A DNA stretch of 61,764 nt from Altererythrobacter sp. Its GTDB lineage: Bacteria; Pseudomonadota; Alphaproteobacteria; Sphingomonadales; Sphingomonadaceae. Location of the stretch: the NCBI GenBank assembly GCA_031178065.1, contig JAPSJS010000015.1, forward strand, positions 1 through 61,764, read 5' to 3'. The translations under genes were made by a program, and so were the position numbers. Within the stretch, counting starts at the first letter, position 1, and every line of letters starts with the position of its first letter. Under the pieces are notes generated by a model that worked only from the letters and a program-made list of their open reading frames with translations, ran no database searches and was not told where the DNA came from. Below, one piece after another: positions 8,165 through 40,214 of this stretch.

Positions 8165-8166
8165 CC

Positions 8167-9380: not shown

Positions 9381-9388
9381 GAGTGCAT

Positions 9389-9419: not shown

Positions 9420-9610
9420 AGCATTTTGGCACGACAGAGTCCTCTGGCTGGTATTAGCCGAACTGCGCGCGACAAGGGTGAGGTTGACACCTCGGCTTCT
9501 TGAGCCTGCATCGGGGCGCGAATGACCCCGGGGTCGACGCCCACAGCGCAAACGGCGTCCATACCCGCGGCGCCCGCGAAATAGCGCCGGGATCGCAATC
9601 TCCAGGTCCG

Positions 9611-16232: not shown

Positions 16233-17828
16233 ATGGCCGATCCCATCGAAGCCATTCTCGACTATTATGGGCCTTTGCTGTCAAGCGAGGTAGCGACTAG
16301 GCTCGCCGAGCGTGAAGGCATCTCGCCGACCGCCGCGCGCCAGCGCCTGTCGCGCGTTCGCGGAAACGTCCGCAAGCTCGCCGGCATTCCCTTCCCGCGC
16401 AACGCGCGCTTCATGTATCTCGACCAGCAATTCGGCTCTCCCACCTACTGGTATAAGCTGGCCGCCGCCCTAATCGCCAACAACTCTGCCCTCGGCTACG
16501 CGATCTCGGCGCTCAGACAGCACCGCGGCATGGTGCCGGCGCGCCAGTTTCCGGTCATCTGCGGATCGCCCGTCCGGCAGCTCAAGCATCTCTCCGCCGA
16601 CACCGTGCTCCAGCGTTTGAGCGAAGCCGGGCTGGTCAAGACCGTCGCGGTTTTGGGTGTCGGTGAATGCGTTGCGCTCGTCCAGGACGATGAATTCTAC
16701 ACGATCGGCGCCATCGAGATGCGCACGCGCACGATCACCGAGGATATCCTTTTGGCGGCGGTCCGCGACTGGCTGCGCAAGCTGGGCATCGCCAGCTATC
16801 ATCTCGTCGCTACCCGCACCCACGAAAAGCTGCCTCAGGTCGGCACCTTCGTCTGGGACCTGAGCGCCCCCTCCTATCTCGGCGCGGTCGTCCGCTTCAG
16901 CCCCGAGGGCGAGCCCAAGCCCGGCTTTGTCGTCTGCGACGTCAATCTGGCCGGGGACATCACGCTCGCCGGCGCGGCGCCCTTCATCCGCAAATGCACC
17001 ACGCTTCGCGCGCTGCGTAATGTCGGCCCCTGCATCCAGATCCTCGTCGCCGACCGCTTCCACAAGGAAGCCTTTGTCGCTTTGCGGGCGGCCGGCATCA
17101 TCGCCGCCACGCCTAAATCGCTGTTCGGTGCCGAAGTGGCGGAAGCCCTGCGCGAGCTAACCAGCGCGCTGACCGAGGCGGCCTACGCCTCCTTCGATGC
17201 CGAGAAGTTTGACCACCTCTTTCGGACGCTCGGCAAGATCGGCGGCGCGGCCAATCAGCTGCGCGGCGCGCTGTTCGAATACATGACCGCAGACATCGCC
17301 AAACGGACCTTCCTCGGCGAGATAACCATGAACCGCATCTTCAAGGTCGCCGACAAGGGGAAGGCCGAGATTGACGTGCTGGTCGTTCAGCAGAACCAGC
17401 GGCTGATCGCGATCGAATGCAAAGGCTACACGCCGCGCTCGATCATTCCCGACGACCTTTTCAAACGCTGGCTCCAGCACAATGTCCCGGTCGCCTATGC
17501 CTATATCCGCCAGCATTCCGAATGGCAGAACCTGCCGTGCCACTTCGAGTTCTGGACCAGCGCCCCGATCAGCGACGAGATGCTCGAACTGTTCCGACGG
17601 ACCAAGGCCGCGCTGAAGCCGAGCCGCTACACGATCGACCTGCGCGGCCCCCAGGATGTCTGGAAAACCTGTATCGACACCGGCGAGAAGAAGCTGATCG
17701 ATGCCTATAGCCATCACTTCACCCCGGGCGACGGCAGTCTGCCGCCGCTCTCGAAGGCCGCACCTCCCAAGCGAGCGCCTGAGCCGCCGGAATATGAGGA
17801 AGACGATTGGGGGGTGCATGACGGCTGA
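16233..17828 (+). CDS. Winged-helix protein with PD-(D/E)XK nuclease domain
   Basis: This 531-residue protein starts with a helix-turn-helix-like region (SEVATRLAEREGISPTAARQRLSRVRG, about 17-44) and continues through several winged-helix-like segments. Near the C-terminus it has a restriction-endonuclease-type catalytic set: E349 in FEYM, D381 in KAEIDVLVV and E395-x-K397 in LIAIECKGY. That arrangement is the Mrr/archaeal-resolvase style PD-(D/E)XK fold and predicts DNA cleavage with Mg2+. Its last 11 bases overlap the ATG of a HEPN protein, so the two are co-expressed. A defence function is inferred from the pairing and the neighbourhood; the family as a whole was not recognised. Confidence 0.65.
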   Translation: MADPIEAILDYYGPLLSSEVATRLAEREGISPTAARQRLSRVRGNVRKLAGIPFPRNARFMYLDQQFGSPTYWYKLAAALIANNSALGYAISALRQHRGMVPARQFPVICGSPVRQLKHLSADTVLQRLSEAGLVKTVAVLGVGECVALVQDDEFYTIGAIEMRTRTITEDILLAAVRDWLRKLGIASYHLVATRTHEKLPQVGTFVWDLSAPSYLGAVVRFSPEGEPKPGFVVCDVNLAGDITLAGAAPFIRKCTTLRALRNVGPCIQILVADRFHKEAFVALRAAGIIAATPKSLFGAEVAEALRELTSALTEAAYASFDAEKFDHLFRTLGKIGGAANQLRGALFEYMTADIAKRTFLGEITMNRIFKVADKGKAEIDVLVVQQNQRLIAIECKGYTPRSIIPDDLFKRWLQHNVPVAYAYIRQHSEWQNLPCHFEFWTSAPISDEMLELFRRTKAALKPSRYTIDLRGPQDVWKTCIDTGEKKLIDAYSHHFTPGDGSLPPLSKAAPPKRAPEPPEYEEDDWGVHDG

Positions 17829-18368: not shown

Positions 18369-19568
18369 TCAAGGTTTGCGCCGATCGCTCAATGACACGA
18401 CTTCAGCATCCCCATCGGTACGCGCGCCAACGACGCGCATCGACGGTTTCAGTCGCACCAAGTTCGGCGGCGATGGAGAGAGATATTCCTCCGAAAGTCC
18501 GCTTAGGTTCGCGATGTCCGCAGCGCTTAGTCCGATCTCTCGAACGAGGTCGGAGCGACTGACGATGCCCTCATCGAGAATCATCTCAATCGACGCAGCA
18601 AGGTTATGGGGCTGCTCAACCGGCAGCTCGCCGTCCAGGGGCTCAAACCCGCGCCAGCGCCGATAGCTGTAGTACTGCCAGAGTCGCCGCTCGTATTCGG
18701 GCGTGATGCGTTCCATTGCGGCCAGGCGCTTGATCATTGCGGCGACGGCGACTTTCCACTTTGGCTTGATGCTGAGCAGCGCCTCCAGCGACAACGAGTA
18801 GACGTCATCGCCGAACGAGGACTCGGGCAGCAGGAAGGCGCCGGCGAAGGCCATGGCCTGTTCTTCGATGAGAGTGAAATGTTCAGCCAGGTTTTGAGGA
18901 TTGACTCGGCGATGCAGGACGACGTGCCCGAGTTCGTGAGCAGCATCGAACCGGCGGCGCACACCGACGTTCTTATCCCGCGCTAGAAGAATGTAGGGTC
19001 GGCCATTCTCGGCCCAACGCGAAACCCCGTCGAGCTTGGCCGAACCGATCTCGTCCTGGGCAACGACGATGCCGGCGTTCTCGATCACCAGAAGAAGGTC
19101 CTCTATCGGCTCCTCGCCGAGCGACCAATGTTCGCGCAGTGCGCGCGCATAATGCTCGATGTCCGCGATCCGCAGCGTCCGGAAATCGCGATCGCCGATC
19201 AGGTCCGGAACATCGACCGTCGGCAGTTCGACGTGCTCGCTCACCGCGTTGTCGATCGCCTCGACAAAACCGAGCTTCGCCTCGGCCTTGTCCCGCATGC
19301 GCCCCAGTTCCGACTTCATCGAGCGGAAGAAGGCAGCACCTTTCGCTCGATCAACCGGCTTGAAGAACCAGCTCACTTCGACTCCGAGGACCTCCGCGAG
19401 ACGTGGCAGAACGGCAGGGTCGGGCTTCTGATCGTGATCGTCGCTCTCCCACTTCGAGATTGTCGTGTCGGCGCGCTCGACCAGCTCGGCCAGTTCCTTC
19501 TGTCGAAGTGCGCGCGCGCCGCGCGCCATGCGCAGCCGCGCTGGCACGAATCCCTCAACGCCGGGCAT
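18369..19568 (-). CDS. XRE-family HTH protein with ImmA/IrrE metallopeptidase domain
   Basis: This 399-residue protein has an N-terminal XRE helix-turn-helix (LRMARGARALRQKELAELV then TISKWESD, residues about 12-45) and a central ImmA/IrrE domain with the zinc motif HExxH in DAAHELGHVVLH. Relatives bind DNA and cleave or inactivate a repressor or antitoxin upon stress, phage or mobile-element activation (the COG2856 group). The final 100 residues are unassigned. It follows a 230-residue protein gene on the same strand after 35 bases, so the two form an operon resembling toxin-antitoxin or mobile-element control modules. Confidence 0.8.
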   Translation of the reverse strand: MPGVEGFVPARLRMARGARALRQKELAELVERADTTISKWESDDHDQKPDPAVLPRLAEVLGVEVSWFFKPVDRAKGAAFFRSMKSELGRMRDKAEAKLGFVEAIDNAVSEHVELPTVDVPDLIGDRDFRTLRIADIEHYARALREHWSLGEEPIEDLLLVIENAGIVVAQDEIGSAKLDGVSRWAENGRPYILLARDKNVGVRRRFDAAHELGHVVLHRRVNPQNLAEHFTLIEEQAMAFAGAFLLPESSFGDDVYSLSLEALLSIKPKWKVAVAAMIKRLAAMERITPEYERRLWQYYSYRRWRGFEPLDGELPVEQPHNLAASIEMILDEGIVSRSDLVREIGLSAADIANLSGLSEEYLSPSPPNLVRLKPSMRVVGARTDGDAEVVSLSDRRKP

Positions 19569-19603
19569 GATGCATCCCGTTCATTACGAACCCTTCCCGA
19601 CCG

Positions 19604-20296
19604 TCACTTCTTGGGTGCGGGCTTTTTCCTGAGTTTCGGCAGCTTGCGCTGTACGACCTTGCGGACGGGCTTCTTCGTGCCCGCGATCTTCTCGCGCAAA
19701 TATCCCATGATCTGCTCGAACGAGTAGCTGTGATAGCGCTGCTTTAAGTCGGTCGATGGAACCCACAAACCGACAAACGAAGGAATCTCCGGCGTCGCTG
19801 CATTGTGTTCCGAGACGATCAGGCCGCCGAAGGCGCCGTCGGGGATGAGCGTGGACACGGCATCCGCCGCTGGTTCGAAAAGCGTGCCTTGGGGATCGAG
19901 CGGTGCGTTCCGGGCGCACAACGTCTCGACATAAGAGGATCGCGTCCGCAGTTGGCGCGGCGCGCCGTTGTAGCGGCTGAAAACCAAGCCGAGGACCAGG
20001 GTGAAAGCACCGATCCGGACCGTCGGGTAGCTCCAAGTTGCGGGCGTCGTCCAGCTGGTGCCGACTTCAAGAGCCGTCCGAGCTCCGGCGGCGCGGACCG
20101 CCCGCTCCATGAAATGACGCCGCAACGTGCCTCGCGCCTGCTTCGCGGACGGCACGTTCGCCTCGGGAATCGTCCGGACCGCATCAGCGGTCGCCGCGAC
20201 CATCTCCTCATCGAGCGCCTGAAAGAAGCGCAACAGCTGCTCGAGGTCGGTTGAGCGGGTCAGCAGATCAAGCGGGAAGAGGGGTCGATGCGGCAT
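19604..20296 (-). CDS. Hypothetical protein, operon partner of XRE-ImmA/IrrE protein
   Basis: This 230-residue soluble protein has a basic Lys/Pro-rich tail (the last 25 residues are mainly K, P and A). Recognisable segments include a helical N-terminus (LEQLLRFFQALDEEMVAATADAV) and a mixed core ending FVGLWVPSTDLKQRYHSYSFEQIMGYLREKIAG. No family was recognised. The basic tail suggests nucleic-acid contact. ATG at 20296 was chosen over GTG at 20305 because GAAAG lies at a usable distance. As first gene of the operon with XRE-ImmA/IrrE it might be the toxin or effector. Confidence 0.55.
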   Translation of the reverse strand: MPHRPLFPLDLLTRSTDLEQLLRFFQALDEEMVAATADAVRTIPEANVPSAKQARGTLRRHFMERAVRAAGARTALEVGTSWTTPATWSYPTVRIGAFTLVLGLVFSRYNGAPRQLRTRSSYVETLCARNAPLDPQGTLFEPAADAVSTLIPDGAFGGLIVSEHNAATPEIPSFVGLWVPSTDLKQRYHSYSFEQIMGYLREKIAGTKKPVRKVVQRKLPKLRKKPAPKK

Positions 20297-20326
20297 CAGG
20301 CGCACTTTCGTATTTATGACAAATTA

Positions 20327-20354: not shown

Positions 20355-20522
20355 CCCCTATTCTGTTGGCGTCACATCAATGCGTAGGGGTAGGTTCGGA
20401 CCTGCGCCCGCGCGGCTCAATAGTGGTCAGCTTGGCCTAACTCCTCAGAAGTGCTGATTGTATGGGGTCTCGCTAGGGACAGAGCGTACGTCTCTGGGAA
20501 CGTGAGCGGCCACCTTGAAGCT

Positions 20523-21305
20523 TCATTCGTCTCTGGCGACCAGGGTCGGATCGGATGAAAGGCGGCTCGGCGGCGGAAGACCAGCTTCGTGCGCCTCGCG
20601 GATTTCTCGGCTGCGCAGGGTGATCCACGTGGGGAACGGGATCGCCAAATCCTGAAACCAGATCGCACGATTGAGCCAGGGATGACCCTGCTCATGAAGC
20701 TGTTGGGCGTGATCGCTCCTTTCGAGCAAGGGACCGAACGCTACCTCTGCCATGTCCATCGTCGCCAACATGGTGTCGAGCCTGTTCAACACCGCCGCCT
20801 CAAAGGCCGCAAGATCATCCCTATCTGCCTGATTGGGAAAGCGGATCGTGCTGATTACTGCATCCGGAAGATATCGGAAAACCGTGAGCGGCGCTCCCAT
20901 GTCATTCCACCAGATCGCCGGCATCGCGATGCCGTCGGCGCGCTTCTGTTTCGGGTGCCGCGGAAGCTCGGCGATGCTGAGGTCGACCAGCTCATTGAAG
21001 CTCGTGACGAACCAGACATGGTGTTCGGCACCCCAGAAGCCGCCCCAGGTGTCATGGCCGGCGGCCGCATAGACTTCCACCGAACAGAATGCGCCCATCC
21101 ACATGCGACCGCCGATTCCGAAGCGGTCGAGCGCGGTCTGAAGCGCTTTCGCGGCTTGCAGGCATTTCATCGAATAGGCCTCGCCATAATGTGCCCGTGC
21201 CGTCGCATCGACCGCCTGCGCGACAAGCCGTCGCAGGAATGGAGGTGTTCTGCGACGCGCCTTGGCCTTCGCCACCTGCGCTTTGAGAAAGGCGGGTTTG
21301 ATCAT
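20523..21305 (-). CDS. Cys-His-Asp (transglutaminase-like) protein of the NACHT operon
   Basis: This 260-residue protein contains a candidate papain/transglutaminase-type triad in the family order and spacing: C48 in SMKCLQAAKAL at the head of a helix, H95/H96 in GAEHHVWFV, and D108 in NELVDLSIAEL. The H-x-W followed by a short strand and V-D-L is how transglutaminase-like cysteine peptidases look. It would hydrolyse or transfer amide bonds, or use the fold for binding. Its ATG overlaps the stop of the giant NACHT gene by four bases, so it is co-translated with it. Activity is an inference from three residues; no family name is certain. Confidence 0.5.
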   Translation of the reverse strand: MIKPAFLKAQVAKAKARRRTPPFLRRLVAQAVDATARAHYGEAYSMKCLQAAKALQTALDRFGIGGRMWMGAFCSVEVYAAAGHDTWGGFWGAEHHVWFVTSFNELVDLSIAELPRHPKQKRADGIAMPAIWWNDMGAPLTVFRYLPDAVISTIRFPNQADRDDLAAFEAAVLNRLDTMLATMDMAEVAFGPLLERSDHAQQLHEQGHPWLNRAIWFQDLAIPFPTWITLRSREIREAHEAGLPPPSRLSSDPTLVARDE

Positions 21306-24300
21306 GTGGCAGGAGATGCCTTCTCAGCGGGCCGCGAGACATTGACGACATAGACATCGATCACATCGCGGAGGTTCTCGGGCAGCCGGTCGATGAGCAT
21401 CGTCCGGAGGTCGTCCGGGGTCTTCAGTCGCGCCAACCCGTCGGGATGGGTGGGCAGGTTCTTTCCCGGCACATCGCCGAACCACAGGACGATATAGGCC
21501 CCCCGGCCTTCGGCATGCCAGTCATGCAGATACCGTGCGGCAAGCTGCTCGACCGGTGCGGTCCAGACCTCGGGGTGCCACTGCCCCTTGATCTCGACCG
21601 GCAGACCGATGCTGCCGAGGATCGCGGCAATGTCCGCGCGCTTCTGCTGTGGCATGTGCATTTCCGGCGCGAAGCGGATCGCGTCGGGCAACTGGCCGGA
21701 GATATGCTCGACCAGGCGGTTGCGGCAGAAATTCTCGCCGCGTGGTTTGGCGCCGTCCCAATAGGCTTCCCACATGTCGGTTGCTGTTGAATGCATCCGG
21801 TCGTCGAGGGCTTTGATGCGGTCGCCAAAAAATGCCCGCATATCGTCGATCGTCGATGGCAGTCCGCCGCCGACGACGGCGGCGAGACCTGCAACCGACA
21901 CTGGCGTGAACTCCGAATCGCGCCGGGCACGCAGCTGGAGCGCCAGGGCATGCCGCAGTGGATCGACATAGCTCGGATCGGCCACGGCGATCAGATGTTC
22001 GAGCGCGGTGGTCGCGTCCCGCGACGGGTCGCCGCTGATGGCGTAGCCGCTGTTCTCTATCGTCGATGTCGCATCCCAGGGATTGGTATCGCCGCTCGAA
22101 CTGCCATGCGGACGCGAGGTTCGCGGCCAGGCATGGCTGAACCGCTCGACGATAAACTGGCGCTGGGCGACCGAAAGCCGCCGATCTGCATCGTCCCGTT
22201 CGCCGGACACGCGGTTTCTGATGAACCAGAGAAAGTCGCGATCATCCGCCGCGGCTTCCACGAGCCAGTCAAAGGTCGCATCGAAATCGACCAGAAAATC
22301 GAGCGCGAGCCACGCCAGCATCGTTTCATAGTCGCGATGCAGGCGGCTGCGGGTTTCACGCGCCAGAGCCTGCAGTTCGGTCAGCTCGGCATGGCGGGTC
22401 GCGTGGCCGAGCAGTTCGGCCTCGACCGTTGCCGGAAGCGACGGGAAACGGCGCAGCCACTCCACCGCCAATCGCCCCGCCAATGGCCGCCAGCGCGGAT
22501 CATTGCCGAGAAAATAAAGGTCAGAGACATGACCGGCCTTGCGCTCGAGTTGCGGCTCGATCGACGTGCGGAAGAACCGTTCGATCGCGGCGTCGTCGCA
22601 GAGCACGGCATCCTCAAGCGGCTTCAGGTCGGTGCCGCCGGAAATCTGGGATTCGGTCGTACGCCTCCATGCCATGAACGCGGACTCGCGCGCTTCGACC
22701 GTCAGATCATCAACACCGAGGCCGCGTCGCAGCCGCTCGGCCACCCCGCACACCAGGCTAAGTTCGGCGAAGTAGATCCTGTCGTTGAGGTGCGTCTCGA
22801 CGATATCCTTTGCGGATGGCCGGTCGTTACGATCGAAGCTCGCCATGAAGCCCTGCAGCACCCGCTCGCCTAGGTCTTCGCCCAGAAACGCAATCACGCG
22901 CGTCTCGGGCGGGGCTTCCCGGTCGAAGCCCCTGAACCGGCCGAGATAGGCCTTGGCGGGATCGTACAGTAGCTTCGGTGCGCCCGCGTTGACCGCTAGA
23001 AGATCCTTGGCGATGCTGTCGCGAAAGGTCTGATGGATTGCGGCCCGCCGTGCCTCGGCTTCTTTCTTGGCCGCCGCTTCCTTCTCCTCCCATTCATAGA
23101 CGAGCGGCTTCGACAGCTCCTCGAGCCTCGCCATAAATGCGGGCGAGTCAGCCCCGATCTTGGCCGCTGCCTCCCGAACAGTCGCGGTAATCCCGTCTCG
23201 GCGCGGTGCGAGCAGGACAAGTTCCTCGAGCATTTCCAGATCAGCGGCTCCGTCACCGCGACGACGGTCGAGCTCCTCGATTAGCGCAATGACCTCATCC
23301 TCCTTGGGATAGAGGTCGAGACCGCATTTGTAGAAGGCATAGGCCGCGTCGCGGACATGCTCGCAGCCGGCGTCGAACACGACATAGGTCTGGACGGCGC
23401 GACGGACCGCCGGATGTGTGCCGAACCAATTGGTGAGCGCATTGGTCGTCTCGCGCTTATAGCCCTGGTTGTGATCGACCCAGTGCAGCCGCCGCCAGAT
23501 GTCTGCTGGCGGCATATCAGGATCGAGCCTCAGTGCGCAAAGTCCTGCCAGATGAACCAGATCGGCAACCTGCGCCTTGGCCGAGTGATCGCTGTCGTTG
23601 GCCAGCGGCTCGCCATAGTCCCGCGCCGCGTCAAGCAGCTCCGTCAGCTGGGCGCTCGTCAGTACCTCGATCGACCTGTCGCTGAGATGAGCATGATCGA
23701 TCCGGTCGTCACTCTGATCGACATCGCTGACGGTGACGCCAATATACGCGTAGAGCGCGCGGATGGCCAGATCCATGGACACCGTGCCGAGCCCGAGATC
23801 GTGCAACACCTCCCAGGCCAGCCGGCGATCATCTTCGCCACCTTGCGCCAGCAGCCGTTCGATCGTCTCGGCGGGATTGTCGATCCGGCCCATTTCACGC
23901 AACGCATCGGCGGCGCGGCTGCGCTCGCCATAGTAGCGCGCCGTGTCGAACATCATCGCGCGCAATTCCGGCTTCAGCGCCGCAGTTAGATCGCTTCCCA
24001 CCATCGCCTCGACCAGCAACAGCGTAAGATGCGTGTGCTGATCGGGCGTTCCGATCAGAGCAAGGATTTCGTCCTTGAGTTCGACGCGCATGAGACCGCT
24101 TGCCGGATGCCGGCCCCAATCCTCCGCGCGGAAAAACGGGTCACGATCGGACAGCGCAGCTAGGGCGCCGAGCAGGCGGCGCGCGACATGGACGGGCATC
24201 GTCTCGGCATCCCCATAGCGCAGCACCGCATAGGGATCTGCGGCGACACAGACCTCCGCCAACGTATCACCGAAATGGGCCATCCAGGCGTGCAACCCGC

Positions 24301-25342
24301 GCAGCGATGTCGGTACGCCGTGGCCCTGGCCGAACAGCGAGAAGAGCCGCCGCGCCGACACGCCGGACTGGAAACAGCGCGCGAGCCACTTCGCGCCGAG
24401 ATACTCGGCGATGACCCGATGCAGGAGATGAAAACGCTGGCCGCCCTCTGCTTCGAACAGCCTGGTATGTAGCGCGAATTCGATATCCTCGGCGTGCCCG
24501 AGCGCGGCAATGCTGCCGACATGGACGCAGCCATCGGGAGTCTTACCTGCCGGGCCATTGAACAGCCCTGCAATGTCACATAGCAATTGGGTGGCGGCGT
24601 AGGCACCGGCGGCGAGAAGGAGTTTCTCGGCCTCGGAATGCGCATGTGCGGCGTCCTGGTGCCGGGGATTATCTTCCTGCACGAGCAGCTGGCAGGCGCG
24701 ATCGAGCAATTGCGCGCGGCTGTCCGGCAGCGCCTCATCGCTCGCCGCGACCTCGCCGATCAGCCGCAGCGTTAGTGGATTCTTGTAGGTTTCTTCAAGA
24801 CCACGGTCGGCGAGATGGGTGAGCACGCCCTCGGCATCCACGGCAGGAAAATTACGGCGAAGGAAGAGCGTCGCGTCATCGCGGTCGAACGCCAGCAAGT
24901 GGAGGAGAATGGCGGGTCGCCCATAATCATCCTCGATCTTGATTCGATCGGCCGCCCCGCGCCAGTCGACTTCGCGGCTCGACAGGATGAAGCGGGGATA
25001 GCCAAGCTTCGACAGCTGGCTGAGGATGGCATCAACGCCGCCGCCTACGGTCGCGGACGCGATCTCATCCAGACCGTCGATGACAAGGCATTCGCCGTTA
25101 GGGATCAAGCGTTCAGGCTGAGCATTCCGCACAAAACTTGCCGCGCGGACATAGACGAAGCCAGCCTGCCGCCCGATCGCCTGCGCCAGCACGCTCTTGC
25201 CTAGGCCCGGATCGCCAAGGAGGACGACGGGGCCATCAAGATCAAGGATCGCCGCCTCATCGATGATGACCGGCGTGCGCGTAGTGGGATCTTCGAGCTC
25301 CAGCCTCCGGTCGATCTCGATACTTGGTTTCACATCCGCCAT
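21302..25342 (-). CDS. NACHT-type STAND ATPase with C-terminal PD-(D/E)XK-like nuclease domain
   Basis: This 1346-residue protein carries an N-terminal ATPase with Walker A GDPGLGKS (43-50) and the NACHT form of Walker B, LVIDGLDE (86-93), then a sensor (FILSSREVDW). About 1000 residues of helical, probably repeat-forming sequence follow, with a charged coiled coil near the middle (EWEEKEAAAKKEAEARR). Close to the C-terminus a nuclease-like set appears: D1237 in RADIAAILG, E1250-x-K1252 in LPVEIKGQW. Bacterial NACHT/STAND proteins sense phage components, oligomerise with ATP and activate an attached effector, here DNA cleavage. No Shine-Dalgarno is evident before the ATG at 25342. The next gene overlaps by four bases. 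Exact subfamily not recognised. Confidence 0.75.
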   Translation of the reverse strand: MADVKPSIEIDRRLELEDPTTRTPVIIDEAAILDLDGPVVLLGDPGLGKSVLAQAIGRQAGFVYVRAASFVRNAQPERLIPNGECLVIDGLDEIASATVGGGVDAILSQLSKLGYPRFILSSREVDWRGAADRIKIEDDYGRPAILLHLLAFDRDDATLFLRRNFPAVDAEGVLTHLADRGLEETYKNPLTLRLIGEVAASDEALPDSRAQLLDRACQLLVQEDNPRHQDAAHAHSEAEKLLLAAGAYAATQLLCDIAGLFNGPAGKTPDGCVHVGSIAALGHAEDIEFALHTRLFEAEGGQRFHLLHRVIAEYLGAKWLARCFQSGVSARRLFSLFGQGHGVPTSLRGLHAWMAHFGDTLAEVCVAADPYAVLRYGDAETMPVHVARRLLGALAALSDRDPFFRAEDWGRHPASGLMRVELKDEILALIGTPDQHTHLTLLLVEAMVGSDLTAALKPELRAMMFDTARYYGERSRAADALREMGRIDNPAETIERLLAQGGEDDRRLAWEVLHDLGLGTVSMDLAIRALYAYIGVTVSDVDQSDDRIDHAHLSDRSIEVLTSAQLTELLDAARDYGEPLANDSDHSAKAQVADLVHLAGLCALRLDPDMPPADIWRRLHWVDHNQGYKRETTNALTNWFGTHPAVRRAVQTYVVFDAGCEHVRDAAYAFYKCGLDLYPKEDEVIALIEELDRRRGDGAADLEMLEELVLLAPRRDGITATVREAAAKIGADSPAFMARLEELSKPLVYEWEEKEAAAKKEAEARRAAIHQTFRDSIAKDLLAVNAGAPKLLYDPAKAYLGRFRGFDREAPPETRVIAFLGEDLGERVLQGFMASFDRNDRPSAKDIVETHLNDRIYFAELSLVCGVAERLRRGLGVDDLTVEARESAFMAWRRTTESQISGGTDLKPLEDAVLCDDAAIERFFRTSIEPQLERKAGHVSDLYFLGNDPRWRPLAGRLAVEWLRRFPSLPATVEAELLGHATRHAELTELQALARETRSRLHRDYETMLAWLALDFLVDFDATFDWLVEAAADDRDFLWFIRNRVSGERDDADRRLSVAQRQFIVERFSHAWPRTSRPHGSSSGDTNPWDATSTIENSGYAISGDPSRDATTALEHLIAVADPSYVDPLRHALALQLRARRDSEFTPVSVAGLAAVVGGGLPSTIDDMRAFFGDRIKALDDRMHSTATDMWEAYWDGAKPRGENFCRNRLVEHISGQLPDAIRFAPEMHMPQQKRADIAAILGSIGLPVEIKGQWHPEVWTAPVEQLAARYLHDWHAEGRGAYIVLWFGDVPGKNLPTHPDGLARLKTPDDLRTMLIDRLPENLRDVIDVYVVNVSRPAEKASPAT

Positions 25343-25370
25343 GATATTAGTTTAATCATTGCTGCTCTTT

Positions 25371-25574
25371 TCAATCAACGCGCAGCGTCCGCATAACACC
25401 TCGACCGCGTAACAGGCGTGCTTCGTGGGCAGCGACCCGGTCGAGATGATCGGCTACGATCGTCCAATTCCCGTCGGGCAAACGCTCGGCGGCACGCAGC
25501 GCGTCATAGAGCGCGGTTGGAGAACAAAGAGAGAAAAGGTCATTGCTGGATCGGCTTGTCGACCCCATCTTCAC
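25371..25574 (-). CDS. Possible small protein upstream of the NACHT gene
   Basis: A 67-codon minus-strand frame with protein-like composition (LYDALRAAERLPDGNWTIVADHLDRVAAHEARLL) fills most of the gap between the divergent operons and ends 28 bases before the NACHT start. Ribosome binding site evidence is weak (GGTGAAG directly before the ATG). It might be a genuine first gene of the NACHT operon, a leader, or a degraded remnant; no family was recognised. Confidence 0.3.
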   Translation of the reverse strand: MKMGSTSRSSNDLFSLCSPTALYDALRAAERLPDGNWTIVADHLDRVAAHEARLLRGRGVMRTLRVD

Positions 25575-25595
25575 CGATCAGGACAAAGGGGATTC

Positions 25596-27332
25596 ATGAG
25601 GCTCGAAGACGAGATCATTCATGCGCTGGAAGCGGGCCGATGGCTCGACTTCGTCGGTGGCTATAATCTGCGCGACGACGCCGACGAAGCGTCGATGCGC
25701 GCACTTGCCATTGGTCTCCACAATTCTGGCCGTTTCGATCTGCTGACCGCGATCGACGGGTTCGACAGTGATGGCGACAGTTTCCGTTTCTACGAGATCC
25801 AGCAATTCTACTCCGACGCGCTCCCGCAACTTGCGGCAGAACCGGAGGCAATGCTGAAGGCGGTCAGGCGGCTGGTCGAGGAAGGCGGTCCCAACCGCGA
25901 CGGCGCCTTCATCGCGCTGCCCTTCCGCGATTGGTGCAAGGGCACAAGCCGCGCCACCGCCATCGCCGCATTGCTCGATTTCTCCGCACCGCGCGACGGC
26001 TGGTATCTTCGCCTGGCGCTCGAAGGGGCATCCACAAATGATCCCGACGGTGCGCTCGATTGGGCGCTCGCGCTGATTGCGGATAAGCCCGGACCTCAGC
26101 GCATCGCCGCGCTCGAAGCGCTGGGCTCGCTTGGTCCAACCCCGGCGCTCGCAACGCACGCGATCGCTGCGCTAGGCGACCAGCTCGAACAGGAAGCCGA
26201 CGATCAGATCCTCGGGCTCGGCATCTATGCCGCGATTGAGCTGCACGGCCGCGGCAAACAGGCCAACCCGGCCGACACTGCAAAGATCGTCGCGATCGCC
26301 GCGACGCGCGGCGGCACCGAAATGCGCCGCCGGGCGATGCAGGCGCTCTGGTTCCAGTGGAAGGCGATCACTCCAGCGATCCTAGATCAACTCATCGGCA
26401 TTGCCGAGACCGTCGAAGGCAGCGATGCGATCGCGGTCGATCATCTCGACCATGCGCTTTACCAGATGACGTCGGGCGAGGATGTCGAGCGCGCGATCGC
26501 GATCGTCCGCACATTGCTGTCCGCCAATCGCGGCACGCTCACCGTCCACAGCTTTGACAGTTTCGAGCATCAATTGCTGACCAAGCATCGCGTGCGGTTC
26601 GACACGCTCGCGGTCGAGTGGTTCGTCAGCGGCGATCGTGCGCTCGGCGAAGCGGTGATGGCGCTGGTGCGCAAGGTCCATGGCGCGCCGATGGTGCTGC
26701 GCCCTGACCTCACGCCGTTCGGCTATGGGAGGGCCGAACTTATCTTTCTGGCGCGAAAAGCGGTCGGCTATCTTTTCACGACCCCGATCAGCGCGGCATC
26801 GCTGCTGATGGCGATCATGCGAGCCGACGTCCGCGACGCCATCAAGGGCGCGACCGAGCTGCTGTTCGATCCGCTGCTGGTCAATTATTCGGGCGAGCTG
26901 GGCGAGCATCTGCGGGAAGCCGCCAAAGACATGAACGATCCGGCGAGCCCGCATGTCGCCGCAGCGCTCCAGCAGCTCGAGACCTATCTCGACGGGCTGC
27001 GCGCGGTTGGCCGCGTCAAGGCGCTCGACCCGTCCGAGCGCGAGCGGATGATCGAATGGCGCCGCCGTCAGCAGGAGATGGAAGAGGCGATGAAGGCTGG
27101 CGAGAAGGAGTCGATCTTGTCGCAGCTCGCGACCAAGGTCGTGCTGCTCTACGGCAACCGCTCGATCACCTATGTCCCGCCGTTCGGCGATGAGCCTGGC
27201 CCAGAGCGGCGCATGGTCACCGAGATGCAGAGCCACCATCATAGCCACGAATATGCGCGCATGATCGTGGTCGATCCGCACGGGATCGACCTCATGCTGC
27301 GGCAATTCCGCGTCGAGCGGCTGCCGACATGA
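25596..27332 (+). CDS. Helical-repeat protein paired with Mrr-like nuclease
   Basis: This 578-residue protein, rich in Ala and Leu, is predicted to be an alpha-solenoid: repeated helix pairs such as RIAALEALGSLGPTPALATHAIAALGDQL and EMRRRAMQALWFQWKAITPAILDQLIGIAE resemble HEAT/ARM repeats. The C-terminal 80 residues differ: a basic-acidic helix (ERERMIEWRRRQQEMEEAMKAG) then strands (KVVLLYGNRSITYVPPF) and a His-rich segment. AAAGGGG four bases upstream fixes the ATG at 25596. Its stop overlaps the ATG of the nuclease gene (ATGA). A scaffold or sensor role for the nuclease is inferred. Confidence 0.6.
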   Translation: MRLEDEIIHALEAGRWLDFVGGYNLRDDADEASMRALAIGLHNSGRFDLLTAIDGFDSDGDSFRFYEIQQFYSDALPQLAAEPEAMLKAVRRLVEEGGPNRDGAFIALPFRDWCKGTSRATAIAALLDFSAPRDGWYLRLALEGASTNDPDGALDWALALIADKPGPQRIAALEALGSLGPTPALATHAIAALGDQLEQEADDQILGLGIYAAIELHGRGKQANPADTAKIVAIAATRGGTEMRRRAMQALWFQWKAITPAILDQLIGIAETVEGSDAIAVDHLDHALYQMTSGEDVERAIAIVRTLLSANRGTLTVHSFDSFEHQLLTKHRVRFDTLAVEWFVSGDRALGEAVMALVRKVHGAPMVLRPDLTPFGYGRAELIFLARKAVGYLFTTPISAASLLMAIMRADVRDAIKGATELLFDPLLVNYSGELGEHLREAAKDMNDPASPHVAAALQQLETYLDGLRAVGRVKALDPSERERMIEWRRRQQEMEEAMKAGEKESILSQLATKVVLLYGNRSITYVPPFGDEPGPERRMVTEMQSHHHSHEYARMIVVDPHGIDLMLRQFRVERLPT

Positions 27333-29233
27333 GGCTGATGATCCGCGAGTATCTGGCGTCGCTGCGCGAGCGCGGCGAGCTGGATGCGATCCTGCCCGAT
27401 CTCTTGACCGAGATGGGCTATCGAGTCTTTTCGCGCCCGAGCGTCGGCACGCGCCAGCATGGGGTCGATATCGGCGCGGTTGGCCGCGACATTGACGGGC
27501 AGGACAAGGTCTTTCTATTCTCTGTCAAGGCCGGCAATCTGACGCGCCAGGACTGGAATGTCGGGCAGCAAGCGCTCAAACCTTCGCTCGACGAGATCCT
27601 TCACGTCTATCTGCGCGCGCGGCTTCCGGTCGAGCACGCGCAACTTCCCGTCGTCATCTGCCTCACCTTCGGCGGCGGGATCGACGAGAGCGTCCGTTCG
27701 GATGTCGAAGGCTATATCGACTTCAACACGAACGACCGCGTCAGCTTCAGGCAATGGGACGGCGACCATCTCGCCGCGCTGATCGACGAAGGCCCGTTGC
27801 GCGAAGGACTGATGTCCGGCGACCTGCGCGGCCATTTGCGCAAGGCGGTGGCGATGGTCGAGGAGCCGGAAGTGGCGATGAGCCATTTTGGGCAACTCAT
27901 CCGCGTGCTGACCGAGCAGGCCAAGCCGAAAAGCTCCGACCGGCTGCGGCGAGTGCGGCAGATGACCTTGTCGCTCTGGATCATGTTCGGCTGGGCGCGC
28001 GAGACCGAGAATGTCGAGGCGCCCTATCGCGCGAGCGAGATGGCGCTGCTGCACGCTTGGCAGCTGCTCAAGCATGAACTCGGCAAGACGACTCAGGCCG
28101 GTGAAGCTGCAGGGCTTTCGTTCAACGCGCTGGTCGAGCTGCATCATGCGATCTGGGACGAACTCTACGCCAAGACGATCCTGCCGCACGTCGATACCCA
28201 GCATGCGATATCGTCGGCGATTCATTCGATGAGTGCGGTCGATGTGAATTTGAAGCTGTTCGACATGGTCGGACGGATCGCGCTGCGGGGACTGTGGCTG
28301 GTGTGGAGGTCCAATGATTTTGCCAAGGCGCCGCAGCTGGTCGCCGATGGCGAAGACGCGCAGGTCATCGACGAACTCGCGCTCCAGCTGGTCGCGCTCA
28401 TTCGCAACAACCCGGCGCTGCTGACGCCGATCGCCGACTGGCAGGCGATCGACATCGGTCTCGCGATCACCTTCCTAGCCTGCCGCAGGCCGTTCCACGA
28501 CGCGATCGGACAATGGGCGGACAGCCTGTCGGACAAGTCGTGGTTCGCCTATCGGACGCACGGTGCCTATCCCACGCGGCACGCAAGCTACTGGTATCTG
28601 GTGTCGCACCCAGCGAGCAGCAGCGATGAATATCGCCAGGAGGCGACCGAGGGTAGCGTGCTCTACCCAATGCTCGCGCTTTGGGCCGAAGTGCTCGAAC
28701 GCCGCGATGTGCTCGACCGGATCGTCGATTTCAAAACCGACGATCTGCCGCATTGCAATTTCCAGATGTTCTTCCTCGACCAGGACAGCGAAGCGCAGCT
28801 CTATGTCGGAGACGATCGCCATGGCTCGGTCCTGTGCGATGTCACACCGATCAAGGGCGAGGCGCATACGCTGTTCATGGCGCGGCGCGAATGCGAGGCC
28901 ATTACCGACTATGACCGGCTGTCGGTGGTCGAACTTGGGCATTGGCCGATCGTCCTGACCGCATGCCGCGTCCACCGCATGCCGGTGCCGCCGCAGCTCT
29001 GGCTCGATATAATCGACGCGTTCGCCAAAGACGGCAATCACCCGGATCCAACCCAAAGCTCTGCATCAGGCCGCCCACAGCCGACACGTTGCCCCATTCC
29101 CCGGCACCGTTGGCGATCAATGTTGCGGGCAGGCACTAGCTGGACCGCTATCGCCGCCGCGACGCTCGACAGTGTTGAGGCCCCGCGCGCTTTCTCGATG
29201 CACATCACGCTAGACGACGCCCAAGCCGATTAA
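27329..29233 (+). CDS. Mrr-like restriction-endonuclease-fold protein with long helical C-terminus
   Basis: The N-terminal 80 residues fit the Mrr-type PD-(D/E)XK fold: an acidic helix (LLTEMGYRVFSR, E28), HGVDIGAVG (D47), then a strand FLFSVKAGN in which K67 is kept but the usual Glu/Gln before it is Ser65. The following 480 residues are mostly helical without recognised domains. From about residue 569 the sequence turns Pro/Ser/Arg-rich and no longer looks like the rest, suggesting a 3' end joined to foreign sequence. It is translationally coupled to the helical-repeat protein. It may act as a DNA-cleaving effector, though the S-x-K variant needs testing before activity is assumed. Confidence 0.6.
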   Translation: MRLMIREYLASLRERGELDAILPDLLTEMGYRVFSRPSVGTRQHGVDIGAVGRDIDGQDKVFLFSVKAGNLTRQDWNVGQQALKPSLDEILHVYLRARLPVEHAQLPVVICLTFGGGIDESVRSDVEGYIDFNTNDRVSFRQWDGDHLAALIDEGPLREGLMSGDLRGHLRKAVAMVEEPEVAMSHFGQLIRVLTEQAKPKSSDRLRRVRQMTLSLWIMFGWARETENVEAPYRASEMALLHAWQLLKHELGKTTQAGEAAGLSFNALVELHHAIWDELYAKTILPHVDTQHAISSAIHSMSAVDVNLKLFDMVGRIALRGLWLVWRSNDFAKAPQLVADGEDAQVIDELALQLVALIRNNPALLTPIADWQAIDIGLAITFLACRRPFHDAIGQWADSLSDKSWFAYRTHGAYPTRHASYWYLVSHPASSSDEYRQEATEGSVLYPMLALWAEVLERRDVLDRIVDFKTDDLPHCNFQMFFLDQDSEAQLYVGDDRHGSVLCDVTPIKGEAHTLFMARRECEAITDYDRLSVVELGHWPIVLTACRVHRMPVPPQLWLDIIDAFAKDGNHPDPTQSSASGRPQPTRCPIPRHRWRSMLRAGTSWTAIAAATLDSVEAPRAFSMHITLDDAQAD

Positions 29234-29847
29234 GCGCAGCTGCGATTGATATCGGTCCGGTGCTTGTCAACTAAAGCCAGGTCCCTTGCGTCGCCTCGAC
29301 GTTACCGACGGGGCGACACCGCGCGGTGTGCCAAAGCCCAATTGCATAAGGACATGAGAGACGGCAACGTGCGTACACGTCAGCTCAGCGCTAACCCGTA
29401 AGGTGGCGCCGTCTACTTCCCACTCCACAAGCGTCGTCAGAGCGGGTTGACCACTTTTAGGATGCTGCGGGATTGGCGACTATGACCTCTTAATGGCGCG
29501 AAGCCGACGCGCCGTTCCGCCACCGGAGTGTCCGCTATCCCCATAGCGCTCCTGAAAGAAGCCATTCCGGACTGTCCAACCATGCTGCCGTTCCAGCGGC
29601 ATGCAATTAAAGTCCTCTTTAGGCCTCGTCGAACGGGCCCCCGATCGACTGAGATGAGGGCGGGTAGCGGAAATGGCTGTTTGGGCGCGAAAGCGGAAGT
29701 ACTTCCTCGAATGTAGCGAACGCGCTGTCCGTCCATTGGGTCTAGCGGGCGAATACAGCCCTCTACCCGCTAACGATCAAGCGAGCGCTGTTATCTAGGT
29801 TCCGGCTTGGGCTTCAACGAAGCGTTCGAGCGAATCCACCGCTGCGG
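29234..29847. other. Non-coding junction between defence island and conjugation cargo
   Basis: These 614 bases have no frame with protein-like content and many stops in all frames. The composition is patchwork and less GC-rich in places (CAATTAAAGTCC region near 29610), compatible with several remnants left by recombination. No tRNA, insertion-sequence end or direct repeat was identified. Confidence 0.35.
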
Positions 29848-31356: not shown

Positions 31357-31585
31357 GCCGTAGATCGATGGGGCACCGGTAGCGTCTTCGCTCTGGCTCT
31401 CGCCGATCAATTCTGCGGCGGTGGTGGTTGGCGAAGCGCACAGGCGCGACCGAAGGCCGCCGGATCACCTCCAAACCCGGCCGTTCCCGGCCCATCCAGG
31501 CCCTTCACGTCCATTCCGATTTTGCTGGCGTTCGCCGACTCTGCGCCTGCCCGGCCAATCCATTGCGGCCGGCAGGAGCTTTGCC

Positions 31586-33607
31586 GTGACGCCGACCAAA
31601 CTGCTCATCGGACAAATCGCCATCGTCTTTGCGATCGTCATCGCAGGCGTGTGGGCCGCAACCCAGTGGGCGGCCGCCATGCTGGCCTATCAGCCGGAGC
31701 TGGGTACCCCTTGGCTGCAGGTCGGCCGCATCCCGCTCTACCGGCCCTGGGCGCTGTTCGGCTGGTGGTACCACTACGAGGCCTATGCGCCGGACGTGTT
31801 CGACAAGGCTGGCACCCTGGCAGGCCTCAGCGGATTTCTCGGTTGCGGCGCCGCGGTCGCCGGCTCGCTATGGCGGGCACGCCAGTCGCGACTGGTCACG
31901 ACCTATGGATCCGCGCGGTGGGCGACGCGCCGCGAGATCGCGCGAGCCGGCCTGTTTCGCGATGCCGGCGTTATCCTCGGCCGCAGCGCTGGGCGCTATT
32001 TGCGTCACGACGGACCCGAACATGTCATGGCGTTTGCGCCGACCCGCTCAGGTAAGGGCGTCGGCCTCGTCGTGCCCACCCTGCTGTCCTGGACCGGATC
32101 GGCCGTTATCCACGACATCAAGGGCGAGAACTGGGAGCTGACCGCGGGCTGGCGCGCGCGCTTCTCGCACTGCCTGCTCTTCAACCCGACCGACCCACGC
32201 TCCGCTCACTACAACCCGCTGGTCGAGGTGCGCCGGGGCGCGCACGAAGTGCGCGACGTCCAGAATATCGCCGACATTCTCGTCGATCCCGAAGGTGCGC
32301 TCGAGCGGCGGAACCACTGGGAGAAGACCAGCCACTCGCTGCTCGTCGGCGCCATTCTTCACGTCCTCTACGCCGAGGAAGAAAAGACGCTGGCCCGCGT
32401 TGCGACCTTCCTGTCGGACCCTCAGCGGGGCTTCGTCGCGACCTTGCGGCGAATGATGGCCACCAACCACATCGGCACTGCCGATCATCCGCGCGCGCAT
32501 CCCGTGGTCGCATCTGCTGCGCGCGAGCTTCTTAACAAGAGCGACAACGAGCGGTCGGGCGTCCTCTCGACCGCAATGTCGTTCCTTGGCCTCTACCGCG
32601 ATCCCACCGTCGCAGAAGTCACGTCCCGCTGCGACTGGCGCATCGCGGACCTGACGGAGGCGGACCGCCCGCTCTCGCTCTACCTTGTGATCCCCCCATC
32701 GGATATCAGCCGCACCAAGCCCCTGGTCCGCCTCGTCCTCAATCAGATCGGCAGGCGTTTGACCGAACGCCTCGACATGCCGGCAAGCGGCGGCAAGCGT
32801 CACCGGCTCCTGCTGATGCTCGACGAGTTCCCGGCGCTCGGCCGTCTCGACTTCTTCGAAACGAGCCTCGCCTTCATGGCCGGTTACGGCATTCGCGCCT
32901 TTCTCATCGCGCAGTCGCTCAACCAGATCGAGAAGGCCTACGGTGAGCACAACTCGATCCTCGACAACTGCCATGTCCGGATCGCCTTCGCGACCAATGA
33001 CGAGCGCACGGCCAGGCGCATCTCGGACGCGCTCGGAACAGCAACCGAGCAGCGCGCGATGCGCAACTATGCCGGGCATCGGCTCGCACCCTGGTTGGCG
33101 CACGTCATGGTCAGCCGCCAGGAGACGGCGCGTCAGCTGCTGACGCCCGGCGAGGTGATGCAGCTCCCCTCCGACGAGGAACTGGTGCTCGTCGCCGGCA
33201 CGCCTCCGATCCGGGCACAGAAGCTGCGCTATTTCACCGACGCCAACTTCATCGCTCGCCGCCTCCCGTCGCCGCCCCTGCGCGAGGGCACCTATCCCGA
33301 TCGCCCTGCTGGGCGGGCGCACGACTGGCCTGATGATGTGCGAGGCGCGGATGCAAGGCTGAGCGCGCCGTCAGACGTGTCGGACGAGGAAGATGGAGGG
33401 CTGGAACAGCAGCGCCATCCCGGCATGGCCGAGGAGAAGGACCCGGCAAAAGAACCCGTCGACGCCGATCTCGACGCCGACGTCGCGGAAGACGGCGATC
33501 CTTCTGCCGACCAGCGCGCGATGGATCAGGCGCGCGGGCCCACGCCTGCTGTGCGCGCCCATGCGATGAACCAGAGCAATCAGCATGATCTCGTGCCGGG
33601 TCAGTGA
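31586..33607 (+). CDS. traG: Type IV coupling protein TraG/VirD4
   Basis: This 673-residue inner-membrane ATPase brings relaxosome DNA to the type IV secretion channel. Two N-terminal membrane helices are visible (IGQIAIVFAIVIAGVWAATQW; GTLAGLSGFLGCGAAVAGSLW), then Walker A in FAPTRSGKGVGLVVPTLL and Walker B in LLLMLDEFPALG. The last 100 residues are acidic and disordered, as common in TraG. The GTG at 31586 was chosen because AGGAG lies seven bases upstream; upstream residues back to 31421 are not conserved. It is the first gene of the conjugation operon, followed eight bases later by copG. Confidence 0.9.
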   Translation: MTPTKLLIGQIAIVFAIVIAGVWAATQWAAAMLAYQPELGTPWLQVGRIPLYRPWALFGWWYHYEAYAPDVFDKAGTLAGLSGFLGCGAAVAGSLWRARQSRLVTTYGSARWATRREIARAGLFRDAGVILGRSAGRYLRHDGPEHVMAFAPTRSGKGVGLVVPTLLSWTGSAVIHDIKGENWELTAGWRARFSHCLLFNPTDPRSAHYNPLVEVRRGAHEVRDVQNIADILVDPEGALERRNHWEKTSHSLLVGAILHVLYAEEEKTLARVATFLSDPQRGFVATLRRMMATNHIGTADHPRAHPVVASAARELLNKSDNERSGVLSTAMSFLGLYRDPTVAEVTSRCDWRIADLTEADRPLSLYLVIPPSDISRTKPLVRLVLNQIGRRLTERLDMPASGGKRHRLLLMLDEFPALGRLDFFETSLAFMAGYGIRAFLIAQSLNQIEKAYGEHNSILDNCHVRIAFATNDERTARRISDALGTATEQRAMRNYAGHRLAPWLAHVMVSRQETARQLLTPGEVMQLPSDEELVLVAGTPPIRAQKLRYFTDANFIARRLPSPPLREGTYPDRPAGRAHDWPDDVRGADARLSAPSDVSDEEDGGLEQQRHPGMAEEKDPAKEPVDADLDADVAEDGDPSADQRAMDQARGPTPAVRAHAMNQSNQHDLVPGQ

Positions 33608-33614
33608 GGCCGCA

Positions 33615-34019
33615 ATGAAAGTCCGCCAGAACCTCTACATCGACCGCGAGCTCAGCGATGCATTGGAAGCGCTTGCGGCCGGTCCCGGATCGAACAAGTC
33701 GCGGCTAGTCAACGACGCGATCTCGGCTTGGCTTTCGCGCCGCGCGAGCCACGAAATCGACGACCTGTTCAAGCACCGGCTCGACCGCATGTCCCGCGAG
33801 CAGGGTCTGATCCGGCGCGATCTGGAGGTGCTGCTCGAAAGCCTCTCACTCTTCGTGCGCTACCAGTTGATGATCAGCGCGCCTCCGCCCGAGAACGATG
33901 CTGCCGCAATTGCTCTCGGCCGTCAGCGCTTCGAGCGTTTCATCGGTCAGCTCGGCCGTCAACTCGCCACCGGCAAGCGCACCCTTGGCAGCAACCTCGA
34001 CGGGAGCACACAATCATGA
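33615..34019 (+). CDS. CopG-family ribbon-helix-helix protein
   Basis: This 134-residue protein has an N-terminal ribbon-helix-helix (KVRQNLYIDRELSDALEALAAGPGSNKSRLVNDAISAWLS) and a helical C-terminus. The gene sits between traG and trbB in most conjugative elements of this type and is thought to regulate the transfer operon or assist relaxosome assembly. Its stop overlaps the trbB ATG (ATGA). Confidence 0.85.
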   Translation: MKVRQNLYIDRELSDALEALAAGPGSNKSRLVNDAISAWLSRRASHEIDDLFKHRLDRMSREQGLIRRDLEVLLESLSLFVRYQLMISAPPPENDAAAIALGRQRFERFIGQLGRQLATGKRTLGSNLDGSTQS

Positions 34020-34999
34020 ACCACACGATCGCCCATGATCGCCGGCGCGCCATGCTGCGGACCGCAATGGGGCCGACCATTGCGGCCGCGCTTGCCGACC
34101 CGTTGGTGATCGAGATCATGGTCAATCCCGACGGTGCACTCCGTCTCGATCGCCTGGGGGAAGGGCGCATCGACACCCTCGTTCGCTACGAGCCTGCGCG
34201 GACCGAGCGCATTGTCCGCCTCGTCGCTTCCTACGCCAAGATCGACGTCCATGCGAAGGCGCCGATCGTTTCGGCGGAGCTTCCGCCTCACGGCGATGGC
34301 GCGGGCGAGCGCTTCGAAGGTCTGCTGCCGCCAGTGGCGACAGCGCCATGCTTCTCGATCCGCAAGCCGGCAGGCCGGGTCTATACGCTCACCGATTATG
34401 TTGCAGGCGGCGTCATGTCACCCGAGGCCGCCAGGCTCCTCGCGCTCGGCGTCGTAGAGCGCCGCAACATTCTCGTCGCCGGCGGCACCAGCTCCGGCAA
34501 GACGACGCTGGTGAACGCCTTGCTCGCGGAGATGGCGCATCTCGACGAGCGTGTGATCCTCATCGAAGACACGCGTGAACTCCAGTCGCCCGCGCAGGAT
34601 ACCGTAGCCCTGCGCACCCATGCCGGCAGCACGACGATGGCCGATCTCGTGCGGTCCACTCTGCGCTTGCGTCCGGACCGGATCATCGTCGGCGAAGTGC
34701 GCGGCGCCGAAGCGCTGGACATGCTCAAGGCATGGAACACCGGCCATCCGGGCGGGATCGCCACGCTCCACGCCAATAGTGCTGCCTCGGCCCTCTACCG
34801 CCTCGAGCAGCTGATGCAGGAAGCGGTCACCACCGTTCCGCGACGTCTGATCGCCGATGCCATCGACATGATCGTGTTCATCGCTGGCCGAGGTACTGGC
34901 CGGCGCGTCGAAACCGTAGCGCGCGTCACCGGCCTCGAGACCGACGGGCGCTACGCCGTCTGCGACCTCCCCATTAACGTCCCGGATCAAGGAGCCTGA
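34016..34999 (+). CDS. trbB: Conjugal transfer ATPase TrbB (VirB11)
   Basis: This 327-residue VirB11/PulE-type hexameric ATPase has Walker A in VAGGTSSGKTTLVNALL, an Asp box (VILIEDTREL), Walker B region RIIVGEVRGAEALDML and the His box GHPGGIATLHANS. It energises pilus assembly and DNA transfer at the cytoplasmic face of the channel. The start overlaps the CopG stop. Confidence 0.92.
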   Translation: MNHTIAHDRRRAMLRTAMGPTIAAALADPLVIEIMVNPDGALRLDRLGEGRIDTLVRYEPARTERIVRLVASYAKIDVHAKAPIVSAELPPHGDGAGERFEGLLPPVATAPCFSIRKPAGRVYTLTDYVAGGVMSPEAARLLALGVVERRNILVAGGTSSGKTTLVNALLAEMAHLDERVILIEDTRELQSPAQDTVALRTHAGSTTMADLVRSTLRLRPDRIIVGEVRGAEALDMLKAWNTGHPGGIATLHANSAASALYRLEQLMQEAVTTVPRRLIADAIDMIVFIAGRGTGRRVETVARVTGLETDGRYAVCDLPINVPDQGA

Positions 35000-35001
35000 C
35001 C

Positions 35002-35331
35002 ATGATCGTGCTCACCCGCCGCTATCGCCTTGCGCCTCTGCTGCTTGTTGCTCTCCTCGCTGTCAGTGCCGCGAGCGGCGTCTCCGCCAGCGGCTCCGGC
35101 ATGCCGTGGGAGGAACCGCTGCAACAGGTGCTCGAATCCGTTCAGGGCCCCGTCGCCAAGATCATCGCGGTCATAATTATCATAACCACCGGCCTGACCC
35201 TCGCCTTCGGGGAAACCGCGGGCGGCTTCCGGCGGCTGATCCAGATCGTGTTCGGTCTGTCGATTGCCTTCGCCGCGTCCTCCTTCTTCCTCAGCTTCTT
35301 CAGCTTCGGCGGCGGAGCGCTGGTCGCATGA
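35002..35331 (+). CDS. trbC: Conjugal pilin TrbC (VirB2)
   Basis: This 109-residue precursor has a signal peptide (LLLVALLAVSAASGVSAS) followed by two hydrophobic helices (IIAVIIIITTGLTLAFG; IQIVFGLSIAFAASSFFLSFF) separated by a short basic loop (GGFRR), the VirB2/TrbC prepilin layout. It begins two bases after trbB, and its stop overlaps the trbD start. Confidence 0.88.
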   Translation: MIVLTRRYRLAPLLLVALLAVSAASGVSASGSGMPWEEPLQQVLESVQGPVAKIIAVIIIITTGLTLAFGETAGGFRRLIQIVFGLSIAFAASSFFLSFFSFGGGALVA

Positions 35332-35588
35332 ACCACATCGACGGCTTTGAAGCGCCGATCCACGGAGCGCTCGGGCAACCGATCCTGCTGGGCGGCGCGC
35401 CGCGCGGCCTCGCGATCGTCAACGGCACGATCGCAGCGGCGATCGGCCTCGGACTCCAGCAGTGGGCGGTCGGCCTTACGCTCTGGGTGCTCGGACACAG
35501 CCTGGCGGTGTTCGCCGCGCGCCGCGACCCCGACTTCCCGCAGATCCTGATGCGGCATCTTCGCCAGCGAGGGTATTTCTCATGCTAG
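35328..35588 (+). CDS. trbD: Conjugal transfer protein TrbD (VirB3)
   Basis: This 86-residue membrane protein of VirB3 type has an amphipathic start (EAPIHGALGQPILLGGAPRGLAI), two adjacent hydrophobic helices (IVNGTIAAAIGLGLQQWAVGLTLWVLGHSL) and the tail DPDFPQILMRHLRQRGYF. It works with TrbE at the inner membrane. Its end overlaps the trbE start by seven bases. Confidence 0.88.
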   Translation: MNHIDGFEAPIHGALGQPILLGGAPRGLAIVNGTIAAAIGLGLQQWAVGLTLWVLGHSLAVFAARRDPDFPQILMRHLRQRGYFSC

Positions 35589-40208: not shown

Positions 40209-40214
40209 TCCATC

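Follow-up and report, generated by a model that had tools for sequence, protein, structure and literature searches.

What does a small cysteine enzyme contribute to a large NACHT ATPase whose gene it overlaps? The question is raised by two minus-strand genes in a stretch of 61,764 nucleotides from Altererythrobacter sp. (contig JAPSJS010000015.1 of assembly GCA_031178065.1; hereafter the window). The larger (21302..25342) encodes 1346 amino acids and the smaller (20523..21305), which we call the partner, encodes 260; the stop codon of the first and the start codon of the second overlap by four bases (ATGA, 21302..21305, minus strand). A preliminary description, which had given these same coordinates, viewed the pair as a phage-sensing ATPase with a DNA-cutting end coupled to a transglutaminase-like protein, and did not recognize the arrangement as a named defense system. 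We find that the locus is of the known EruA kind and carries an accessory that we did not find described.

The larger gene encodes an EruA-type NACHT protein

The product of the larger gene scored 1364.5 bits against the NCBIfam model NF058535 (NACHT domain-containing antiphage protein EruA), for which the curated cut-off is 1000. The alignment placed residues 12-1336 onto model positions 1-1318, and the protein is thus a member of this family by a score above the cut-off over its whole length. Besides the full-length match, it shares with EruA the N-terminal NACHT domain, the length class and a C-terminal D/E-x-K tail, and nothing in it excludes membership; what differs is the overlapping transglutaminase-like partner, which is absent from 30 of 33 EruA loci. 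We therefore rejected the possibility that the main NACHT gene lies outside any named system. The pair as a unit was not matched to a named two-gene system, as the partner has no family match above cut-off. The antiphage role of EruA is predicted here, as it is taken from the family name. A literature search, with preprints and most subscription papers outside its scope, found, among the matches listed, no description of EruA or HyoA as antiphage proteins. The E. coli regulator called EruA in the literature was considered and set aside as another protein.

The NACHT assignment was borne out by both nucleotide-binding motifs. The Walker A motif GDPGLGKS occupies residues 43-50 (25193..25216, minus strand) and the Walker B motif LVIDGLDE residues 86-93 (25064..25087, minus strand), and K49, D89 and E93 are each found in 18 of the 19 aligned homologues. 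The Pfam NACHT model matched with E=1.3e-4 and 22.3 bits, under its curated cut-off of 26.7. The 19-row alignment omits three interrupted copies (L054, L056, L061), one at a contig edge (L067), one from an unannotated record (L074), the phage record L079, the viral-contig copies L080-L088 and the HyoA-like loci. Seven of the 29 matching plasmid records were taken (H3-H8, H10), six of them into this alignment. A further alignment, A3, has 17 rows, being additionally without L062 and L076 with their differing C-termini.

The C-terminal region, residues 1121-1346 (21305..21982, minus strand), carries E1203, D1237, E1250-x-K1252 (in the sequence VEIKG at residue 1249) and Q1266. D1237 is invariant (19/19), and E1250, K1252 and Q1266 are present in 17 of 19 rows, the other two having a different C-terminus. 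In a model of the tail, the D...E-x-K active site falls on a nuclease-like fold, as compared by VIA-align, whose list leaves room for other folds. The conserved residues and the modeled fold together support the prediction, made earlier from the E-x-K patch, that the tail is a PD-(D/E)XK-type nuclease.

One homologue (L062, 7426-11580) matches EruA model positions 1-1142 only, and by eye a domain that resembles a hydrolase and includes a membrane segment has taken the place of its nuclease tail. As judged from the sequence, the tail appears to have been exchanged as a whole in a natural effector swap. Since the tail can be replaced wholesale, EruA lends itself well to the study of how NACHT proteins swap effectors.

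HyoA (NF058534), a related NACHT antiphage protein, matched with 111 bits and its best stretch at residues 168-780, far under the cut-off of 1200. Avs proteins of the AVAST systems are STAND ATPases with a nuclease effector. EruA probably works alike, and one relative of the partner lies beside Avs2; EruA differs from Avs in that its nuclease is C-terminal and that no PADLOC Avs model matched. Indeed, no family in the PADLOC-DB of 2023, Avs models included, matched EruA at E ≤ 1. Among solved structures, neither EruA nor the partner had a convincing relative by sequence.

Among genomes sampled from the class, 3 of 289 have an EruA match over the cut-off, and among those from the order 10 of 396 (the source genome of the window is counted in both). 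It was matched by tblastn in 29 of 72,556 plasmid records, and nine loci are on viral contigs.

The partner is a predicted transglutaminase-fold cysteine enzyme

The residues attributed to the partner in the preliminary description, in transglutaminase order, are where they were said to be: C48 (21162-21164), H95/H96 (H96 at 21018-21020) and D108 (20982-20984), all on the minus strand. All of them are invariant in the four family sequences. Pfam PF13471 (Transglut_core3) matched the partner with E=0.0029 and 18.0 bits, short of the gathering score of 26; all four sequences match this family and nothing else in Pfam at E ≤ 10. No match was found in PADLOC, NCBIfam or PHROGs at E ≤ 1.

The similarity was examined further by comparing the partner with 20 Transglut_core3 domains using hhalign. 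In local mode the score was 30.4 with an HH-suite probability of 41%, compared with at most 22.7 in 200 template shuffles, at most 21.8 in 200 query shuffles and 15.0 for the reversed query; these shuffle controls cover the local mode only. In global mode the score was 21.9 and the probability 16%, and the alignment paired C48 with the Cys of the family and H96-x-W98 with its H-x-W, leaving D108 off by one column. In the sequences themselves, the partner has a His-to-Asp spacing of 12, as do several of those domains. The Cys-His-Asp order that characterizes the transglutaminase-like superfamily is thus present in the aligned core. A chance pattern was ruled out by the invariance of the triad in all four sequences and by an hhalign score above all 400 shuffles. 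The profile comparison and the invariant triad support the prediction of a transglutaminase-fold cysteine enzyme, most likely a putative protease. The fold is a prediction, because the AlphaFold2 model, built from two rows, reached a pLDDT of 38.5 and was set aside as evidence.

Lasso peptide leader peptidases fall in Pfam Transglut_core3. The partner shares with them the C-H-D order (CLQ...HxW...D), the His-to-Asp spacing of 12 and profile similarity, and differs in its sub-cut-off score, about 140 extra C-terminal residues and its defense-gene neighbors; no lasso gene cluster was found beside it, the adjoining genes being EruA, a RosmerTA-like pair and Olokun. PMC10885120 describes lasso leader peptidases (C96) as cysteine proteases that contain a transglutaminase-like domain. 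In NTPase conflict systems, transglutaminase-like peptidases are infrequent effector domains according to PMC7159879 and PMC8195603; in these descriptions they are domains of larger system proteins, whereas here the enzyme is encoded by a stand-alone gene beside EruA, an arrangement absent from those descriptions. A literature search, with preprints and most subscription papers outside its scope, returned nothing in which a transglutaminase or cysteine protease is linked to STAND/NACHT proteins, Avs2 or Shedu.

The pair is conserved in a second genome and lies among defense genes

In Sphingomonas citricola (L002), the two genes lie at 4964-9004 and 9001-9783 with the identical type of overlap. 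They belong to a homologous block, 20520-29345 in the window, which is 85.5% identical in nucleotides between the two (with a 35-base piece beyond). The block holds the partner, EruA, OloA and OloB and starts three bases past the stop codon of the partner. Between the window and S. citricola, dN/dS values from our own Nei-Gojobori script were 0.114 for EruA, 0.109 for the partner and 0.101 for OloB, and the first two values indicate that both proteins of the pair behave as selected proteins. A third, decayed copy is found in genome G402 (locus L054), with EruA interrupted and the partner cut down to its first 57 bases. The co-occurrence of the two genes is therefore real, with two intact loci and a decayed third, but it is rare in view of the 30 partner-less EruA loci, and both intact pairs belong to a single group of close relatives.

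At L054, the 57-base remnant runs into a fragment of a CAP12/Pycsar-type TIR gene (8050-8424; PF10137, 53.2 bits).

The defense setting suggested earlier is evident from PADLOC matches on both sides of the pair. Upstream of and divergent from EruA is an Olokun pair (25425-29233, plus strand) inside the block common with S. citricola, consisting of OloA (25425-27332, 294.4 bits; its start is probably further in) and OloB (27329-29233, 643 bits). Directly downstream of the partner is a RosmerTA-like pair (18369-20305, minus strand) outside the shared block, which ends at 20520; it consists of RmrT (19604-20305), with a weak match of 36.9 bits, and RmrA (18369-19568), with a strong one of 408.5 bits. 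By its gene content, the setting is a defense island adjoining a conjugative module.

Past Olokun, conjugative type IV secretion genes (VirD4-, VirB11-, VirB4-, TrbL- and TrbI-like) extend over 31421-42990 on the plus strand. A tRNA-Val gene lies at 44589-44663, and we would guess that it may be an integration site. On the other side, a 531-residue protein (16233-17828, plus strand) has a NERD / DUF4143 / CARF-nuclease-like C-terminal patch (NERD 23.2 bits, cut-off 22.1) and is possibly the product of a further defense gene.

The second gene at EruA loci is optional and variable

The genes adjoining EruA were tabulated for 33 loci, with partial and interrupted ones counted. The table takes in same-strand reading frames at most 160 bases downstream or at most 300 upstream, and omits L079, the weak matches L012-L029 and the HyoA-like loci L008-L011 and L041-L048 (1.5 kb of flank each). 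The partner follows EruA intact at two of the 33 loci, with the G402 remnant as the third, while EruA homologues without it are common and their reading frames are open. A DUF4143 protein follows EruA at five loci (by Pfam for four and by record annotation for L075), and a tudor-like domain protein at one (L060). At two loci (L066, L082), the gene immediately 5' of EruA encodes an ATPase that by eye resembles DUF4143. At the remaining loci, the adjoining frames are other genes, unlikely genes or none. These varied contents indicate that the second gene is optional and variable. Since its slot is elsewhere filled by DUF4143 or empty, the partner is an accessory rather than a core part of the system.

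The five DUF4143 genes in the slot are at L057, L058, L059, L065 and L075; some carry AAA_14, and three overlap EruA by 4-8 bases. A DUF4143 protein is possibly a regular companion of EruA.

Relatives of the partner lie beside other nuclease-type defense genes

Three relatives of the partner were found, in S. citricola (91% identity), on a Caulobacter rhizosphaerae plasmid (51%) and on a Vibrio diabolicus plasmid (39%). Searches returned one locus in the genome contig collection and 2 of 72,556 plasmid records, the same two being recovered with the Vibrio protein as query. There were none in 50,697 phages, in three viral-contig scans or, by blastn with the Vibrio gene, in E. coli genomes. Among sampled genomes, the partner was matched in 1 of 289 from the class, 1 of 164 from the family, 3 of 396 from the order (the window's genome, the remnant in G402 and a weak match of 31% interrupted by stops) and 5 of 398 from the phylum (the window's genome and four weak matches); these samples overlap and each counts the window's own genome.

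On the Caulobacter plasmid, the relative is divergent from a 1509-residue Avs2 about 140 bases away, which scored 968 bits with PADLOC and 604.7 with the NCBIfam Avs2 model, under its cut-off of 1000. On the Vibrio plasmid, it follows an SduA (Shedu) type gene (PADLOC 74.6 bits, Pfam SduA_C 46.8 bits). In a search that covered the plasmids alone, EruA itself had no match on the Vibrio plasmid, and on the Caulobacter plasmid a single stretch, containing a stop, scored 14.3 bits. Avs2 and SduA carry nuclease domains. The family thus occurs in three lineages with three different nuclease-type defense neighbors, and three contexts are few. These neighbors support a defense role for the partner and, at the same time, weaken the case that it serves EruA alone.

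At the Vibrio locus (L052, 6973-11104), the SduA-type gene and the partner relative lie between inverted IS30-type copies of 1102 bases that are 100% identical. No other gene is annotated between the copies, in a table that may lack entries, and no further reading frame of 80 or more residues was retained.

Discussion

The preliminary description had offered a second effector, a maturation protease or an off-switch as candidate roles for the partner. We propose that the locus encodes a phage-sensing NACHT protein of the EruA type together with an optional proteolytic accessory that acts in the same response, a reading we consider evenly balanced between right and wrong; the probabilities we attach to this and the three readings below overlap in part. 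By analogy with NLR and STAND biology, the long middle region of EruA would sense phage infection. ATP-driven assembly would then gather the C-terminal PD-(D/E)XK nucleases, and the gathered tails would cut DNA. The partner may provide a second arm by proteolysis of a cell or phage protein, or it may process the nuclease protein, and we favor either over a pure bystander. This proposal is consistent with the full-length EruA match, the nuclease residues in 17 of 19 rows, the triad in all four sequences and the overlap in two genomes, as well as with the similar dN/dS, the block edge at the stop codon of the partner, the G402 remnant and the Avs2 and SduA neighbors. To be weighed against it are the 30 of 33 EruA loci without the partner and the two distant relatives away from EruA, together with the sub-cut-off Pfam score, the HH-suite probabilities of 41% and 16%, the pLDDT of 38.5 and the single related group in which the pair occurs.

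The same scarcity at EruA loci would be expected if the partner were an independent one-gene defense or counter-element whose gene came to overlap EruA by accident in a single lineage. Its relatives lie beside three unrelated defense genes, and in a divergent arrangement at Avs2. Yet the 4-base overlap and a constraint equal to that of EruA in two species speak against an accident, as does the Vibrio relative in its IS-bracketed two-gene stretch with an SduA-type gene, and we regard this account as possible though on the unlikely side. In a further reading, the partner would be a safety lock, or off-switch: a protease by which the nuclease protein, once activated, is removed or held in check. 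A nuclease-type neighbor in all three contexts would give it a common thing to restrain, and an overlapping gene fits matched production; however, the many open-framed EruA homologues that lack it speak against a lock. The G402 copy is damaged in both genes, so that the order of loss cannot be read there, and this too counts against a lock, which we think doubtful. If the partner were a strict maturation protease, it would cut EruA and free the nuclease tail as lasso leader peptidases act on leaders. Transglut_core3 is the nearest fold relative found for the partner, and those peptidases are, according to PMC10885120, cysteine proteases with such a domain (C96). But many EruA genes have no partner, and a single dedicated substrate fits poorly with an enzyme family whose members also accompany the unrelated Avs2 and SduA. 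We regard strict maturation as quite improbable.

At this locus EruA is already named; the novelty lies in a conserved cysteine enzyme found with EruA and, elsewhere, beside two unrelated nuclease defenses. We tentatively suggest that the partner is the founding member of a mobile, so far undescribed family of cysteine proteases with the transglutaminase fold, a shared add-on to EruA, Avs2 and Shedu. If so, several unrelated nuclease-based phage defenses would have a common second arm or control element, and bacterial NACHT immunity would gain a protease branch that is operon-coupled to a DNase. Such a shared proteolytic add-on of DNA-cutting immunity, if real, would be in its logic a bacterial counterpart of NLR-protease coupling.
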